From positions 62,001-126,000 of the forward strand of contig OY282363.1 in NCBI GenBank assembly GCA_958295695.1: a stretch of DNA of 64,000 nt. Reading direction: 5' to 3'. The position numbers and the translations under genes were made by a program. This document shows positions 2,429-45,961 of this stretch, piece by piece (the stretch's first letter is position 1; each line of letters begins with the position of its first letter). This DNA comes from an uncultured Alphaproteobacteria bacterium. GTDB lineage: Bacteria; Pseudomonadota; Alphaproteobacteria; SP197. The notes below the pieces were generated by a model. The model did not search any database. It had not been told where the DNA came from and saw nothing but the letters and a program-made list of their open reading frames with translations.

Positions 2429-2920
2429 CTACGCGGGCCGCGACGCCTTCTCCACCCCGCGTTCCAGGCGGTGGGCGCCGATCATGCCGGCGACGATCCC
2501 GGCGCAGAAGAAGTAGACGCCGAGATCGGCGGTGACCTCGGCCAGCAGGCCGAGCGACAGCATGGCGACCGCGAGCGCCACGAGGAACACGTCCATCATC
2601 GACCACTTGCCGAGCCTGACCGACCAGGCGAGCGCGCGCCGCGCCGCGCCGTGGCGGGGGTCGCGCGAGGCCCAGACCCAGACGGCCAGGCCGAGCTTGC
2701 CCAGGGGGAAGACGATCGAGAACAGGAGGATCACGATCCCCAGCGGAATGTCCTTGCCGGAGACGAGCGTCCAGACGCCCTCGGCGATCGACTTGCTGCT
2801 CCCGAAGACCCAGAACTTCTCGACCGTGAAGGCCGGCAGCGCCAGGCCCAGCAGCAGGCAGACCAGGGCCGCGGCCAGCAGCAGGCCCGTCAGCGCGTCG
2901 CGATGGAGGGCGGCGGTCAT
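2429..2920 (-). CDS. PqiA-like (paraquat-inducible protein A domain) inner-membrane protein
   Basis: The product is 163 residues if translation starts at the ATG at 2920 (MTAALHRDALTG). The frame stays open further upstream, but that part is Arg/Gly-rich and overlaps the divergent helicase gene, so it was not used. The protein carries a single PqiA domain with about four hydrophobic segments. It shows the family hallmarks TVEKFWVFGSSKS, FSIVFPLGKL and LGKWSMMDVF. PqiA proteins are integral membrane components linked to lipid transport and envelope homeostasis with MCE-domain partners. No MCE gene is adjacent here, and the single-domain form is common as a stand-alone gene in Alphaproteobacteria. 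The function of the orphan form is unknown. Confidence 0.85.
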   Translation of the reverse strand: MTAALHRDALTGLLLAAALVCLLLGLALPAFTVEKFWVFGSSKSIAEGVWTLVSGKDIPLGIVILLFSIVFPLGKLGLAVWVWASRDPRHGAARRALAWSVRLGKWSMMDVFLVALAVAMLSLGLLAEVTADLGVYFFCAGIVAGMIGAHRLERGVEKASRPA

Positions 2921-3156: not shown

Positions 3157-5654
<2,498 letters not shown>

Positions 5655-7310: not shown

Positions 7311-7811
7311 ATGGCGACCGCGAACATCAGGCTCAAGGCCGGCGACCACGTCGTGTATCCGACCCATGGGGTCGGACTGGTCAGGGCCATCGAGGAACAG
7401 ACGATCGGCGAAGCCAGGCTGAAGATGGTCGTGGTACATTTCGAGCAGGACAAGATGATCCTGCGCGTGCCGACCCACAAGGTGGCGTCGTCGGGCATGC
7501 GCAAGCTGTCGTCGAAGGACATCATGAAGAGCGCGCTGACCACCCTGAAGGGCCGCGCCCGGGTCAAGCGGACCATGTGGAGCCGCCGCGCCCAGGAGTA
7601 CGAGGCGAAGATCAACTCCGGCGACCCCGTGTCGATCGCCGAGGTGGTGCGCGACCTCCATACCCGCGTCGGCCACGCCGACCAGTCCTACAGCGAGCGC
7701 CAGCTCTACGAGGCGGCGCTGGACCGGCTGTCGCGCGAACTGGCCGCGGTCGAGGGCGTCGAACCCTCCCAGGCCACGACCAAGATCGAGAAGACGCTGC
7801 AGGCCGCCTGA
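7311..7811 (+). CDS. carD: CarD/CdnL-type transcriptional regulator
   Basis: The 166-residue protein is a CarD/CdnL family factor. These bind the beta subunit of RNA polymerase and stabilise open promoter complexes, notably at rRNA promoters. The N-terminal RNA-polymerase-interacting Tudor-like domain spans about residues 8-65: GDHVVYPTHGVG and the MILRVP segment. The helical C-terminal DNA-contact domain follows, with KRTMWSRRAQEYEAKI, IAEVVRDLH and SERQLYEAALDRL. ATG 7311 is chosen because the domain starts at once. An upstream extension of the frame is Arg/Gly-rich and unlike the family. It follows fdxA, as in many alphaproteobacterial genomes. The downstream neighbour expected from synteny (the phosphatase-like gene at 9368) is displaced by a foreign block. 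Confidence 0.95.
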   Translation: MATANIRLKAGDHVVYPTHGVGLVRAIEEQTIGEARLKMVVVHFEQDKMILRVPTHKVASSGMRKLSSKDIMKSALTTLKGRARVKRTMWSRRAQEYEAKINSGDPVSIAEVVRDLHTRVGHADQSYSERQLYEAALDRLSRELAAVEGVEPSQATTKIEKTLQAA

Positions 7812-7854
7812 CGCGCCGGCCGCTTCCGGATTCCGCGAGGCGTTTGCCGGTCCG

Positions 7855-7877
7855 GCGGAGCGGGTGGGCCGCTCCGC
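7855..7877 (+). terminator. Candidate carD terminator hairpin
   Basis: A perfect 9-bp stem, GCGGAGCGG / CCGCTCCGC, with a 5-nt loop lies 44 bp after the carD stop. No T-tract follows, so if it is a terminator it is of the GC-rich, U-poor type. It could also be only a stabilising 3' structure. Confidence 0.35.
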
Positions 7878-7904
7878 GGCGGAAAGCGGAGGACCGCGCC
7901 GAAG

Positions 7905-8180
7905 GCCGCGAGGAAAACTCTCGAAGGCCGTGGCGCCATGGACAAAACCGGCGTCGCGTGTATGAAGGAACGGGCCACCGACGAGGTGAAGGCCAAGGTC
8001 GTGTCTTCCACTGACGCCGCGACTCTGCGATCCTTCTTGCGAGGTCATGCGAAGGCGGAGGCCGCGATCCGCACCGGCAAGCACGGAGCCATGGGACGGA
8101 TCGCGGCGGGCCCGTTCGGCAAGCGGCCCCGCTACCGCGACTCCGCCGCCGCCGGCCTGCGTTCGGGAGCGCGGACGTGA
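7905..8180 (+). pseudogene. Decayed ISXO2-like (IS1595 family) transposase fragment
   Basis: The frame around 7905-8180 reads GRGAMDKTGVACMKERAT, then VVSSTDAATLRSF, then a short tail ending PRYRDSAAAGLRSGART. This parallels the catalytic region and C-terminus of ISXO2-like transposases and also the second remnant in this window at 44517-45050 (GAVDKTIVAGVKDRA, STDAETPRSF, LRHRDPIADNG). Only about 85 codons survive. The N-terminal helix-turn-helix, the first catalytic Asp and the NGIES region are all missing. The C-terminus joins after an internal deletion. The stop codon (8178-8180) overlaps the start of the following methyltransferase. No terminal inverted repeats were recognised. Confidence 0.7.
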
Positions 8181-8929
8181 TGCGTATGGAAGCCCGCGCG
8201 CTCCCTCGCGGAGACCGGCCCCCGCGAAGGCGTCGGGTCCGCAACGGCGAGGCGACCAACGACCTGATTCTCAGCGCCTGCGCGGACGGGAACGATCGCC
8301 TTTTCCCACGCGTTCTCGACCTGTACGTGAAGCCCGGAAGCGCGATCGCGGACGTGACTTACGGGAAGGGCGTCTTCTGGCGACGCATTCCGTCGGATCG
8401 ATACGATCTGCGGGCGACCGACATTCGGGACGGGGTAGATTGCCGAGACCTGCCTTACGATGACGGGGAGATAGATTGCGTGGTCTTGGACCCACCCTAC
8501 ATGCACTCGCCGGGCGGGACCGCACACGAAGTTCACACGCCGTTCGAGGACCGCTATCGGAACAACGAAAGCGGCAACCGGACCGGGAGCAAGTACCACG
8601 AGGCCGTTCTGGACTTGTACCGCGAGGCGGGCCGCGAGGCGCATCGCGTCTTACACGACCGCGGTGTGCTGATTGTGAAATGTCAAGATGAGGTGTGCTC
8701 GAATCGCCAGAGGTTCACACATGTCGAAATCATGCGGATGTACGACGAAATGGGCTATGTCGCCGAGGATCTGTTCGTTGCCGTACGAAACAACCGCCCG
8801 GGTGTGAGCCGCGCCGTGCGCCAAGTCCACGCCCGCAAGAACCATTCGTATTTTCTCGTGTTCTGGAAGCGGGGCGAGAGCAGGGGCCAATGGGACATTC
8901 CAGTTCAACCCTGTGCGGCTCGACCGTGA
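8177..8929 (+). CDS. DNA methyltransferase (amino-methyltransferase, DPPY type)
   Basis: The 250-residue product has the AdoMet motif in the form ADVTYGKGVFWR (about residues 58-69) and a catalytic DPPYMHSP motif (about 104-111). Later segments (EAHRVLHDRGVLIVKCQDE, then VARKNHSYFLVFWK-like) match the end of the N6-adenine/N4-cytosine methyltransferase fold. It lacks a visible target-recognition insert, which fits small phage- or mobile-element-type orphan enzymes. No restriction gene is adjacent. Start choice is open among GTG 8177, ATG 8180 and ATG 8186. All overlap or abut the transposase-remnant stop. Base composition is visibly less GC-rich than the flanking carD region, which suggests horizontal origin. 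Confidence 0.8.
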   Translation: MMRMEARALPRGDRPPRRRRVRNGEATNDLILSACADGNDRLFPRVLDLYVKPGSAIADVTYGKGVFWRRIPSDRYDLRATDIRDGVDCRDLPYDDGEIDCVVLDPPYMHSPGGTAHEVHTPFEDRYRNNESGNRTGSKYHEAVLDLYREAGREAHRVLHDRGVLIVKCQDEVCSNRQRFTHVEIMRMYDEMGYVAEDLFVAVRNNRPGVSRAVRQVHARKNHSYFLVFWKRGESRGQWDIPVQPCAARP

Positions 8930-9137
8930 CTACGATTACCTGCTATGCCTCGGTATCTGCCCGCGTGAGATCGTCTTCAACATGTGGCGCAAAGGCGCGG
9001 TCGCCGAGAACCGCGCCGGGCGTCTTGTGCGAATGGCCGAAGGTCGGGCCGTTACCTGCAAGATCGCCAGGAAGCTGGAAGACATGGCGCCCATTGAGAC
9101 GTTGCCCGAGATGCTACGCGTAACCCTGGAATTGTAA
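8913..9137 (+). CDS. Small hypothetical protein overlapping the methyltransferase gene
   Basis: This 74-residue ORF starts at GTG 8913, overlapping the methyltransferase 3' end by 17 bp. It reads MRLDRDYDYLLCLGICP, then an EIVFNMWRKGAVAENRAG segment, and ends TLPEMLRVTLEL. Balanced composition with aromatic and hydrophobic residues suggests a real protein and not a shadow frame. No family is recognised. The overlap implies co-transfer and coupled translation with the methyltransferase. A role as an accessory protein of the methyltransferase or of the mobile block is inference only. Confidence 0.5.
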   Translation: MRLDRDYDYLLCLGICPREIVFNMWRKGAVAENRAGRLVRMAEGRAVTCKIARKLEDMAPIETLPEMLRVTLEL

Positions 9138-9148
9138 GGAACGCTTTC

Positions 9149-9314
9149 ATGCCCGAGAAACCGAAACCACGACCCGTGGCTCAAGCCCGCGGGCCATCGA
9201 CCCAGGAAGGCGGAGAAGGAAGTGGACATGTCCATCGACGTCTCGCCCGATGAGTTTCCCGACGCCGTCACGCGGTCCGTGAACATCGGGATCGCCGGCA
9301 AGCGCGACCGGTGA
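9149..9314 (+). pseudogene. Small frameshifted ORF (54-aa basic protein if repaired)
   Basis: The frame from ATG 9149 begins MPEKPK and soon becomes unlike a protein. The +1 frame continues HDPWLKPAGHRPRKAEKE, then VDMSIDVSPDEFPDAVTRSV and ends KRDR at 9314. Removing a single C near 9167-9168 joins the two into one sensible reading frame of about 54 residues. This suggests a 1-bp insertion in the genome or a sequence error. It sits 11 bp after the previous small ORF. No family is recognised. The rest of the gap to 9367 shows nothing. Confidence 0.45.
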
Positions 9315-9367
9315 AGGATCGGGACTGTCGTATGTAATCGCTCTCGTTCTCGGGGCCCCGACAGGCA

Positions 9368-10168
9368 ATGCTCGATCCCGACATCTTCGGCGTCCTGACC
9401 GCGTGGAACAGGGTCTGGGCGGTGGCGGCCGTTCATGGCGAACGCGGCCGTCTCGCGGCGCTTCACGATGCGCTGGCCGGACGTTTCCAGCCTCGCGACA
9501 GGGTGGTCTACCTGGGCGGCTACCTGGGTTTCGGCGGCGACGTGTGCGGGACGCTCGACGAGTTGATCGCCTTCCGCCGGGACCTGCTCGCCCGGCCGGG
9601 CGCGATCCCGCGGGACGTGGTGTTCCTGCGCGGCGCCCAGGAGGAGATGTGGCAGAAGCTTCTGCAGCTCCAGTTGGCCATGGATCCGTCCCGGGTCCTG
9701 GCCTGGATGCTCGAGCGCGGGGTCGCGGCCACGATCGGGGCCTATGGCGGGGTCGCGGCCGACGGTTTCGCCTCGGCCCGCGACGGCACGGTGAGCCTGA
9801 CCCGCTGGACCGGCCGGCTGCGCGCCGCGATGCACGCCCATCCCGGCCACCGCGAACTGCTGAGCCATCTCAAGCGCGCCTGCGTTACCGACGACGGCGC
9901 CATGCTGTTCGTGCACGCGGGCCTCGATCCCGGCCGGCCGATCGAGACCCAGCGCGACGCGTTCTGGTGGCGGCCGGCCGGTTTCACCGCCATGACGGAG
10001 CCCTACGGCGGCTTCAGGCTCGTCGTGCGCGGCCACGACCCGGACCGCGGCGGCGTCGCGATCGAGGACTTCAGGGCGACCATCGACGGCGACCGCGGGG
10101 AGGGCGGCCCGCTCGTCGCATGCTGCTTCGACCGCGGCTGCCGCGTCGTCGACCGGATCGAGGCTTGA
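9368..10168 (+). CDS. Metallophosphoesterase-fold protein with degenerate metal-binding motifs
   Basis: The 266-residue protein aligns in order with PPP-family phosphatases and diadenosine tetraphosphatases, but the signature motifs are altered. GDIHG is AAVHG (about residue 20), GDxxDRG is GGYLGFG (about 49) and GNHE is GAQE (about 82). The later LFVHAG and VRGHDP segments keep their His residues. Loss of the Asp, Asn and His metal ligands in motifs I-III argues against a normal dinuclear metal centre. A binding or regulatory pseudoenzyme is more likely. ATG 9368 gives a compact N-terminus. It reads in the same direction as carD, from which it is separated by the transposase/methyltransferase block. 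Confidence 0.75.
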   Translation: MLDPDIFGVLTAWNRVWAVAAVHGERGRLAALHDALAGRFQPRDRVVYLGGYLGFGGDVCGTLDELIAFRRDLLARPGAIPRDVVFLRGAQEEMWQKLLQLQLAMDPSRVLAWMLERGVAATIGAYGGVAADGFASARDGTVSLTRWTGRLRAAMHAHPGHRELLSHLKRACVTDDGAMLFVHAGLDPGRPIETQRDAFWWRPAGFTAMTEPYGGFRLVVRGHDPDRGGVAIEDFRATIDGDRGEGGPLVACCFDRGCRVVDRIEA

Positions 10169-43240: not shown

Positions 43241-43259
43241 GGATGTCCCGTTGGAGGTT

Positions 43260-43452
43260 ATGTGGGAAAGCGCCGAACCGCCATCGACCTTCCCGCTTCG
43301 GCGAGCGAGGGACAGGGCCGATCTCCACGGGCCGGGCCAGCGCTTTCACCGCTTCCTCGAACGTCGCGCCGACCCGCGCGGCTTCCGGTTCGGCTGGGCC
43401 GGCAGTCCGCGCGCGCCGGCTTCGCGGCGCGATGTTTCGGCTTGTCGGTCAT
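43260..43452 (-). pseudogene. Small frameshifted ORF downstream of the second methyltransferase
   Basis: From ATG 43452 the frame reads MTDKPKHRAAKPARA. The adjacent frame gives PAEPEAARVGATFEEAVKAL and ARPVEIGPVPRSPKREG. Together they look like a small basic protein of the DKPK...TFEEAVKALA kind broken by a frameshift. A comparable broken small ORF (MPEKPKHDPW...) follows the first methyltransferase at 9149. Low confidence. Confidence 0.35.
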
Positions 43453-43614
43453 TTGAACGGACCCCCCGAATTGCCGTTGACGGGTACGGGCTTGCCTGCC
43501 CGCGGCTCGATTCCCGGATGGCGGAACACCGCGCGATTTGCGATACGAAACGGCCTTCCGGATCGCCGAAATCTCCCGACCCGGAGGCAGTTTCACGCGG
43601 CGATCGAACACGGC

Positions 43615-44520
43615 TCACACAGCCAGCTTGGCCAGCACGGGGATCGCGGCGCGGCCCATCTCGTAGTACTCGGCGTTGTGCTCCAGACCGATGCTCCGGA
43701 TTCCGCAAGCCGTCGCGGCGGCGAGAGTCGATCCCGACCCCGCAAACGGATCCAGCACAACGCCTTTGCCCAACGGCAGGCTGGAACGCACCAGGGGCCG
43801 CAGGAACGCTTGAGGTTTCAGCGAAGGATGCGGGGCCGCTTCCCGCTCTCGCTTGCGCGCCGGCGACGCCTCGATCAAATCCTTGAATGGCTCCCGTTCC
43901 GACAAACGCCGCAGGCCGCCGGTCGCCCACTCGCGGAGGTTCTCCCGGACCGTCCCTTCGCAGGGCCGCCGGAAGATGCCCCATGGCTCGAAGCAGGACT
44001 TCGGCATGACCGTGACATTCGGAAACTCGTCATGCGCGTTCTTGGGACGGTCCCCGCCGCGCAGCGTGTGCACGACTCGGACCAGAGTGCCGCGAATCTC
44101 GAACCCCATCGCCGCGAATGAATCGGACACCAGATGGGACAGGAGCGGATTGCTCGCCACGAAGACATGAGCGCCGGGAACGAGGACCGGATAGAGCAGT
44201 TTCGCGAAGCGGGCAAAGAACGTCCGTATCTCGTCTTTCTCGTCATCCTTGAGAACGGTGAATCTTGGAACGGGTTGTCGTTGGCGCCCGTCGAAAGACG
44301 GTGGGATGCGCCAAACGCCACCCCTGCCGCTCTTGCGTTTCTCAAGCTGGTCGGGAGTGTATTCCACCAAACCGTAGGGTGGGTCCGTCACGACCGCATG
44401 GATGGATCGCTCTTCGGCGGCGCTCAACCACGAGAAAGCGTCCTTGTGAAGGAACTCATGGAGCGTGGCCTCGAGACCCAACTTCGGTTCCAGGGCGGGA
44501 CCGAGCGCGGCGTCGCTCAT
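43615..44520 (-). CDS. Site-specific DNA methyltransferase (beta-class N6-adenine/N4-cytosine)
   Basis: The 301-residue enzyme has catalytic motif IV TDPPYGLVEY near residue 45 and, near the C-terminus, LKPQAFLRPLVRSSLPLGKG followed by AdoMet motif I VLDPFAGSGSTLAAA near 270. This is the order of the beta class. LVPGAHVFVASNPLLSHLV represents the region after the catalytic motif. No restriction gene is adjacent, so it appears to be an orphan. The ATG overlaps the stop of the transposase remnant (ATGA). Base composition is lower in GC than parB and the PBP gene. The C-terminus (RSIGLEHNAEYYEMGRAAI) is typical. Confidence 0.88.
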   Translation of the reverse strand: MSDAALGPALEPKLGLEATLHEFLHKDAFSWLSAAEERSIHAVVTDPPYGLVEYTPDQLEKRKSGRGGVWRIPPSFDGRQRQPVPRFTVLKDDEKDEIRTFFARFAKLLYPVLVPGAHVFVASNPLLSHLVSDSFAAMGFEIRGTLVRVVHTLRGGDRPKNAHDEFPNVTVMPKSCFEPWGIFRRPCEGTVRENLREWATGGLRRLSEREPFKDLIEASPARKREREAAPHPSLKPQAFLRPLVRSSLPLGKGVVLDPFAGSGSTLAAATACGIRSIGLEHNAEYYEMGRAAIPVLAKLAV

Positions 44521-45050
44521 GCCCGCGCTCCCAAGTCCGGCCCGTTGTCGGCGATCGGGTCGCGGTGGCGGAGCCTCTTGCCGACCGTCCGGCGGACGAT
44601 CCCGGCCATCCGGTCGGGCATGTCGACGCCGCGCCGGGTCGAGAACTCCATGACGCGGCGATCGAGATGCCTGGCCGACAGCTTGTGGACGGTCCCCTTA
44701 TGCGCCCTCTCGGGCATGTTCCAGAAGCTCTCGATCCCTTGGGTGCTCGCCATGCCCCGGACATACCCGCCGACGCCATGGCGGACCGTTTCGCGCGTGA
44801 AGTCGCGGGCCGGCCCCCGATAGCCGCCGTGCTCGTCCGTACGGACCGCGGCGCCGGCCTCCACGTTTCCCCGGACGAAGGATCGCGGAGTTTCGGCGTC
44901 GGTGGAAGGAACGACTCCGGCGCGGATTTCGTTGGCGGCGCGGTCCTTTACGCCCGCGACGATCGTTTTGTCCACGGCGCCGCGCCGGTCGATGTCCAGG
45001 TCCCGACACAGCTTCATGCTCGACACGGATTTCAGGCCGGTCGGCGGCGG
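44517..45050 (-). pseudogene. Decayed ISXO2-like (IS1595 family) transposase
   Basis: The frame reads GLKSVSSMKLCRDLDI, then jumps to DRRGAVDKTIVAGVKDRAA, STDAETPRSFVRGN, VRTDEHGGYRG, GMASTQGIESFWNM and HKLSARHLDRRVMEFSTRR, and ends RLRHRDPIADNGPDLGARA. The order and motifs match ISXO2-like transposases. These have a helix-turn-helix, a DDE-like core with NGIES, and the PxHLDR helix. Between CRDLDI and DRRGAV the region containing the first catalytic Asp is missing, so it is inactive. The stop overlaps the methyltransferase start. No inverted terminal repeats were identified. Confidence 0.75.
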
Positions 45051-45079
45051 ACAGGCGTATCGAAGGGGCGCGCGCGCTT

Positions 45080-45961
45080 TCAGACGCGGGGCGGGGGACG
45101 TTCCAGGCGGGCGATGGCGTCGTCGAGCTGTTCTGGGGCGGAGTAGTGCAGGATCAGGCGGCCCCCCTCGCCCTTCCGCGCGATCTCGACCTTCAGGCCG
45201 GTGGCCTCCGCGAGCCGCGTCCGCAGCGCCCGGAGGTCGGCGTCCTCGCCGTCGTCCCGCCGCGTCCGCCGGCGTTCCCGCCCCGGCTCGCCGGCGGGCG
45301 CCCGCGCCCGCGCCTCGGTCTCGCGCACCGACAGGCCGAGCCGGACGACCGTCTCGGCGAGCCCTCCCGGATCGGCGGCGGCGAGCAACGCGCGGCCGTG
45401 GCCGGCCGAGAGCTTGCCGCGCTCGAGCAGGACGCGGACCGACGCCGGGAGCTGGAGCAGGCGGACGGTGTTGGCGACATGGGCCCGGCTCCGGCCGACG
45501 ACGCCGGCGACGTCGGTCCGGTTCAGGCCGAACTCCTCGCGCAGCCGCTCGTAGCCGGCCGCCTCCTCGAGGGGGCCGAGGTCCGCGCGCTGAAGGTTCT
45601 CGACCAGCCCCGTCTCCAGGACCTCGCGGTCGGACATCTCGCGCACGATGACCGGGACCTCGTGGATCCGCGCCATCTGGGCCGCGCGCCAGCGCCGCTC
45701 GCCGGCGACGATCTCGAGCATGGCGCCGTCCTCCGGCGCGGGCCGCGCCACGATCGGCTGCATCATGCCGCTGCGCCGCAGGCTCTCGGCGAGGAGGAGG
45801 AGCTCGTCCTCGTCGAACCGGACGCGGGGCTGGAGGCGTCCGGGCCGGAGCGCGGCGACCGGGACCCGGCGCAGGTCGCCGCCGTCGCCGTCCCACGCCG
45901 GGGGGATGGCCTCGGCGAGCAGGGCCGCGAGGCCCCGGCCCAGGACCCGCTCCCCGCTCAC
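45080..45961 (-). CDS. parB: Chromosome-partitioning protein ParB
   Basis: The 293-residue protein is the parS-binding CTPase. N-terminal features include VLGRGLAALLAE. Box I (VPVAALRPGRLQPR) and box II (IVAGERRWRAAQMARIHEV, the CTP-binding GERRxRA) are followed by ETGLVENLQRADLGPLEEAA and the helix-turn-helix GLNRTDVAGVVGRSRAHVAN. The C-terminal dimerisation domain ends the protein. GTG 45961 overlaps the parA stop by 4 bp. It sits close to six parS sites (49.3-54.0 kb). In relatives holA usually lies downstream. Here a transposase remnant and a methyltransferase follow instead. Confidence 0.96.
   Translation of the reverse strand: MSGERVLGRGLAALLAEAIPPAWDGDGGDLRRVPVAALRPGRLQPRVRFDEDELLLLAESLRRSGMMQPIVARPAPEDGAMLEIVAGERRWRAAQMARIHEVPVIVREMSDREVLETGLVENLQRADLGPLEEAAGYERLREEFGLNRTDVAGVVGRSRAHVANTVRLLQLPASVRVLLERGKLSAGHGRALLAAADPGGLAETVVRLGLSVRETEARARAPAGEPGRERRRTRRDDGEDADLRALRTRLAEATGLKVEIARKGEGGRLILHYSAPEQLDDAIARLERPPPRV

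Follow-up and report, generated by a model that had tools for sequence, protein, structure and literature searches.

The stretch between carD and the next gene in the window (the whole 64,000-nucleotide stretch of DNA analysed) is very probably a decayed ISXO2-type insertion sequence of the IS1595 family that carried a type II restriction-modification (R-M) system as its passenger. Positions 7878-9342 form a one-ended remnant of such an element, with all components running in one direction: a transposase remnant, a methyltransferase, the second half of an endonuclease, a frameshifted small ORF and an inverted repeat (Table 1). The space from the transposase remnant to the right repeat is occupied by genes that are dispensable for transposition. 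The intact form consists of a left inverted repeat, transposase, methyltransferase, PD-(D/E)XK endonuclease, small ORF and right inverted repeat, and would insert with an 8-bp target duplication.

Table 1. Features of the remnant at carD, of a second module in the window and of the two complete relatives. Coordinates are those of the window, or of the locus where one is named.
Feature	Position	Strand	Basis or remark
carD	7311-7811		CarD domains (Pfam)
ISXO2/IS1595 transposase remnant	7878..8180	+	profile positions 153-225 and 301-320 on ORF 7812-8177; PF12762
DNA methyltransferase (N6/N4 amino-methylase type, DPPY motif)	8177..8929	+	N6_N4_Mtase, phrog_24333, PADLOC
C-terminal half of cognate type II restriction endonuclease	8886..9137	+	protein alignment, DNA alignment, PADLOC and fold of intact relatives
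Terminal small ORF of the element family (..SIDVSPDEFPDAVTRSVNI..)	9138..9314	+	profile match 9138-9311, the window sequence being among the five used to build the profile
Right terminal inverted repeat	9323-9342	-	AGCGATTACATACGACAGTC read inward; weight-matrix score 11.3
Gene downstream of insert	start 9368		
Second module	43253-45160	-	transposase remnant, ATGA overlap, different methyltransferase, broken MTDKPK-type small ORF, right repeat
Second-module methyltransferase	43615-44520	-	no stop inside
Second-module right inverted repeat	43253-43272		weight-matrix score 6.1
L025 inverted repeats	2931-2956 / 5337-5362		8-bp target duplication AAACTTTG
L040 inverted repeats	1-37 / 2764-2800		

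The window copy follows carD, and relatives have nothing inserted at this site. Forty related genomes were compared, with the window genome searched too, and 18 loci (L099-L116) hold carD and the gene at 9368 side by side. The insert is absent from all 18, none of them contains the methyltransferase, and where 1,559 nt separate the two genes in the window, these loci have 58 to about 415 nt between them. The right end was located with a weight matrix built from 18 inverted repeats of other elements, 9323-9342 not included, and scanned along both strands of the 64 kb. This repeat ranks first among 127,962 positions and strands, and the runner-up is the right end of the window's second such module. 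The same scan found no left inverted repeat in the window; of the two repeats predicted near 7880 and near 9340 in the preliminary description, the right one exists and the left one was not found. Because the left end is lost, no target duplication is visible for the window copy. A GC-rich stem at 7855-7877, read by eye within the first 67 bases past carD, abuts the transposase remnant, and relatives have a stem followed by a T run (also read by eye) at the matching place behind carD. The start of the element therefore seems to coincide with the carD terminator.

The IS1595-kind DDE transposase survives in the window as a remnant. The ORF from 7938 matches Pfam DDE_Tnp_IS1595 with an E value of 0.0026, and a whole-genome search matches the same domain at 7871-8089 (4.8e-6). 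A profile built from two intact ISXO2-type relatives is matched at positions 153-225 and then at 301-320, meaning that a middle fragment of the DDE domain is joined to the C-terminus. The N-terminal half is missing, and so are about 75 residues between the two matched parts, among them the catalytic-E region. As had been described, the C-terminus ends inside the methyltransferase start, where the TGA at 8178-8180 overlaps the GTG at 8177-8179. The remnants beside this R-M pair in the window (7878-8180), in L042 and in L085 are each missing a similar internal part that includes the catalytic-E region, and keep their C-terminus next to the methyltransferase. These deletions may have a single shared origin; their junctions differ, and the three methyltransferases form no clade.

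Complete elements with the same passenger are found among 30 related methyltransferase-endonuclease loci. In L025, from a record titled Silicimonas sp. MAG, an intact transposase frame (PF12762, 3.5e-38; zinc ribbon PF12760, 1.7e-6), a methyltransferase, an endonuclease and the small ORF lie between inverted repeats. L040, from a Nitrospirales MAG, has the same gene order and an intact transposase frame, and its endonuclease frame is broken. Genes not needed for transposition are therefore located between the IS ends in both. L042 retains a broken transposase, the methyltransferase-endonuclease pair, the small ORF and a right repeat (score 18.6), L085, L031 and L032 hold transposase remnants only, and L022 has just a right-repeat-like site (score 14.3, against a maximum of 12.1 elsewhere). 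With L022 counted on its inverted-repeat score alone, 7 of the 30 R-M loci are ISXO2-positive. The other 23 gave no transposase match and no convincing inverted repeat, so the R-M cassette also lives outside ISXO2 elements and is not tied to this vehicle. The candidate rule that the cassette is always ISXO2-borne was rejected on this count. A methyltransferase without transposase had been named beforehand as the observation that would speak against a passenger; it does occur, in these 23 loci, and overturns 'always a passenger' but leaves this copy unaffected.

The same 23 loci, and the many ways in which R-M systems move, would also suit a cassette that came alone or on another vehicle and beside which an ISXO2 element landed afterwards. 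Such an order of events is very unlikely and is largely refuted for L025 and L040, where the inverted repeats enclose transposase, methyltransferase, endonuclease and small ORF, in L025 together with a target duplication. The right repeat of the window lies beyond the small ORF, and the overlap of transposase stop and methyltransferase start seen in the window recurs in L025 (GTGA) and L040 (ATGA), the kind of intact ISXO2-like element with an adjoining methyltransferase that had been proposed as a check. Judging from these sequences, the R-M pair would move inside ISXO2-type ends. The proposal that the methyltransferase arrived as an ISXO2 passenger is borne out by the two complete elements, the right repeat in the window and the 18 empty sites; it was incomplete as to content, since the passenger is the methyltransferase plus its restriction endonuclease.

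That endonuclease is represented in the window by the 74-codon ORF beginning at GTG 8913. This ORF, listed previously, is real, and it is the readable part of the C-terminal portion of a restriction endonuclease of ~165 aa. Its homologue is the next gene after the methyltransferase in 30 of the 80 loci with a methyltransferase relative, and the endonuclease is full-length in 28 of these 30, the exceptions being L040 and L041. D65 and E74-x-K76 hardly vary in the family alignment and make up the D...ExK pattern of PD-(D/E)XK nucleases. Intact relatives match the PADLOC model REase_II (6e-14 for L012, 1e-13 for L025), and the AlphaFold model of the L012 protein (pLDDT 90.7) resembles I-Ssp6803I (Z 11.1, rmsd 3.0, 121 residues) and NhoI (Z 9.9, rmsd 3.6, 115 residues). 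A PD-(D/E)XK-type fold is predicted for the family on this basis; no Pfam family was found for it, and a sequence search against the PDB gave no match. The restriction enzymes nearest in fold, NhoI and Eco15I, act on methylated DNA according to their entry titles. A methyl-dependent nuclease may be considered here as well, and Z values near 10 point to a shared fold only.

Alignment at the DNA level indicates that a single deletion of roughly 0.26 kb took the start of the endonuclease with its D...ExK residues and fused the end of the methyltransferase to the downstream part, which begins at A83 of the family alignment, just behind ExK. With the catalytic half deleted, the window copy is a remnant and not a working R-M system, and its endonuclease is dead. 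The terminal ORF has also decayed: the homologous frame is open at 9138-9311 and does not include the MPEKPK start at 9150, which lies in another frame, in agreement with the frameshift noted previously. It is most unlikely that these two small ORFs instead function together with the methyltransferase, for instance as regulator or inhibitor. In favour of a functional partner, the 74-codon ORF has an open frame that starts with GTG, and it is still 77% identical to the corresponding part of the closest endonuclease; however, it starts just past the catalytic ExK of a protein that is full-length in nearly all of its loci, one clean deletion joins the two genes, and the terminal ORF is frameshifted.

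The methyltransferase component of the type II R-M system is present in the window. Its identification as a DNA methyltransferase, made in the preliminary description, is supported by matches to Pfam N6_N4_Mtase (8.6e-9) and to the PHROG family phrog_24333 (1.5e-60); a sequence search against the PDB gave no useful match. In comparison with its relatives the gene contains no stop or frameshift up to residue ~240 of 250, and the deletion junction has taken the place of its last few residues. The gene would now stand as an orphan methyltransferase, and it may be open simply because the decay is young. Relatives at 66-80% identity come, by the record titles of the present set, from Alphaproteobacteria, Chloroflexi, Cyanobacteria, Acidobacteria, Nitrospirales, Poribacteria and others. 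A solitary gene of phage or host origin without relation to restriction, which the match to a phage methyltransferase family might suggest, is scarcely credible, given that an endonuclease accompanies the closest relatives in 30 of 80 loci and that the window retains the second half of that endonuclease. A reading of the module as a transposase plus a solitary methyltransferase was rejected, as the 74-codon ORF aligns over its whole length with the endonuclease second half. A second, frame-broken relative of the window methyltransferase, 54-63% identical to it, is found in the window genome at L095 (G000:C1:161687-162353, minus strand), with no detectable endonuclease partner at that locus.

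Related elements were surveyed with the L025 transposase as query, in 41 related genomes and then in 385 genomes of the class. The searches gave 20 and 38 transposase matches (one common to both), of which 40 were fetched; copies from the window genome itself, those located at contig ends and some of the weaker matches were left out. An inverted-repeat pair usable as element ends was obtained for 31 of the 40 copies and was not found for nine (L170, L171, L175, L178, L191, L195, L201, L203, L205). Dropping three identical copies leaves 28 distinct elements, in which the repeat pairs of L202 and L204 are weak. The delimited elements measure 2.0 to 4.5 kb and begin mostly with GGG(A/G)ATTATATAC. 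Exact zero-offset 8-bp duplications are present in 12 of the 31 (L174, L176, L177, L180, L187, L189, L192, L193, L194, L196, L197, L199).

The 28 elements contain 67 ORFs of 70 aa or more, which were compared with Pfam and PADLOC; as the ORFs were called mechanically, some are spurious. R-M or DNA-modification genes occur in 14 of the 28: L167, L168, L169 (Mom), L177 (methyltransferase assigned by reading its sequence), L179, L180 (BglII type), L183, L188 (NotI type), L192 (XcyI type), L193, L194, L196, L200 and L206. The passenger of L169, at 4393-5118 of the locus, is a Mom-family DNA-modification gene (PF25680, 7.4e-14). The remaining 14 have no R-M or Mom gene, and several have unknown or ordinary ORFs only, such as an EamA transporter. 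PIN-domain genes are present in L173 and L183, and an IrrE-type gene in one element (L172 by its sequence). The best PADLOC methyltransferase-type model matches 10 of the 67 passenger ORFs at 1e-5, and models of this kind match none of the 88 ORFs that flank the surveyed elements (all 23 matched families inspected). In Pfam these flanking controls gave one REase-ARP and one CAP12 TIR domain among the best 25 of 85 families. One genome, G312, holds an element with transposase, methyltransferase and BglII-type endonuclease in four copies (L180, L181, L182, L184), which show no difference over the compared 2.66 kb and have different flanks. Two of them have their own duplications (AATTTTAA and TTTTTTTA). 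L181 has on its left the sequence that L182 has on its right, an arrangement that recombination between copies would be expected to produce.

Two aspects of the layout recur in these elements. The first ORF of at least 90 codons starts at an NTG overlapping the transposase TGA (ATGA or GTGA) in 14 of 39 distinct loci, a set made up of the survey together with L025 and L040. The same overlap in the window (GTGA) and in its second module (ATGA) comes on top of this count. The genes starting at this overlap are mutually unrelated (L168, L169, L170, L180, L183, L196 and more). The other aspect is the small ORF, which occupies the same place in L025, L040 and L042 as in the window and carries the pattern (I/R)xATPE(E/Q)xAxA at the end of many elements; Pfam returned no family for it. 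A survey profile of 15 sequences matches 18 of the 39 loci at E < 1e-6, only 6 of the 18 being independent of the profile because 12 of the 15 sequences came from the loci searched. Two matches are exceptional, in L193 not adjoining the right end and in L198 on the other strand. Some copies have an RGRP stretch, which we take to be AT-hook-like. As a guess, the small ORF could encode a helper acting at the element ends.

A sequence of events can be proposed from this layout. Passenger genes would be read from the transposase transcript, and the NTGA overlap could couple their translation to that of the transposase; it is a layout, not proof of coupling. Addiction to the R-M system would guard the insertion sequence against loss. 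Once inserted, the window copy would have been stripped of its left end, of the transposase 5' half and of an internal stretch; the catalytic half of the endonuclease would have gone and the small ORF would have fallen out of frame, with the methyltransferase staying open. The endonuclease is expected to be lost before the methyltransferase, because a cell that loses the methyltransferase first cuts its own DNA, and the present state of the window copy fits such an order of decay. Extended to the whole group, ISXO2-type elements might be a widespread chassis for exchangeable R-M, toxin-antitoxin and DNA-modification cassettes, docked at the transposase stop through NTGA with translation tied to it, and closed by a conserved protein of ~55 residues (with AT-hook-like RGRP in some copies) that aids the transposase at AT-rich ends. 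Cassette addiction would protect the IS, and both would prosper. This extension is offered tentatively, as a possibility that we would not call probable.

Insertion sequences with passenger genes are known as 'transporter IS' (tIS), as PMC3129680 sets out, and the suggestion that IS1595-family elements sometimes carry such genes accords with it and with PMC5704250. In the latter, tISCpe8 and MTnSag1/tISSag10 are IS1595-family elements with 25-bp inverted repeats, mobilisation is treated for tISCpe8 and MTnSag1, and the tISCpe8 passenger is, by a title cited there, an antibiotic-resistance gene. The present elements share with IS1595 transporter IS the PF12762 transposase domain, the inverted repeats, the 8-bp duplications and passengers dispensable for transposition. 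They differ from tISCpe8 and MTnSag1 in carrying full R-M systems, in the NTGA overlap with the transposase and in the conserved small ORF behind. Tn7-like transposons are likewise vehicles of diverse defence systems, R-M being the commonest (Benler et al., PMC8649781). However, Tn7-like elements are large and combine several core genes with long cargo, whereas the ISXO2-type elements here have 2-4.5 kb and one transposase gene. As in type II R-M systems in general (PADLOC MTase_II/REase_II), methyltransferase and PD-(D/E)XK endonuclease are adjacent in the relatives; by contrast, the window endonuclease is without its catalytic half, and the family has neither Pfam model nor PDB sequence match.

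The pair 'IS1 - site specific DNA methyltransferase' appears as an over-represented neighbour pair in PMC9208149; given the kinship of IS1 with IS1595, some of the pattern seen here may already have been noted in that paper. Type I R-M genes lie near several IS, IS1595 among them, according to PMC10214660; R-M passengers of IS1595 elements are not described in the available parts of that paper or of PMC5704250. Passenger-carrying IS1595 elements and Tn7-like transposons with R-M cargo are thus already known. Searches of the literature on ISXO2 with restriction-modification and on ISCARN110 yielded nothing, and no prior description was found for R-M as dominant cargo, for the NTGA overlap or for the terminal small ORF. 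Methyltransferase passengers are mentioned for some IS. IS1595 elements with full R-M passengers were not found described in the literature searched, and methyltransferase passengers may be mentioned in the founding paper of the family, Siguier 2009.

How type II R-M systems pass from one phylum to another is a long-standing question. An insertion sequence of 2-4 kb with R-M as a unit offers a concrete, testable vehicle for them, and the many other R-M-type cargoes of related elements may help to explain their spread between bacteria. The start/stop overlap suggests a specific rule of capture and expression. Because the endonuclease described here has no Pfam family, 'ISXO2-like transposase' annotations are a useful bait for new restriction enzymes.

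Other modules occur in the window genome. The minus strand of the window holds, at 43253-45160, a second module of the same build as that at 7878-9342. A locus at about 3.2946-3.2956 Mb of G000:C1 (L093:4600-5629) contains what is left of the C-terminus of a C5-methyltransferase and of an HNH-like ORF, with a terminal small ORF of the same kind behind them, all identified by reading the sequence, and is probably a third decayed passenger element.
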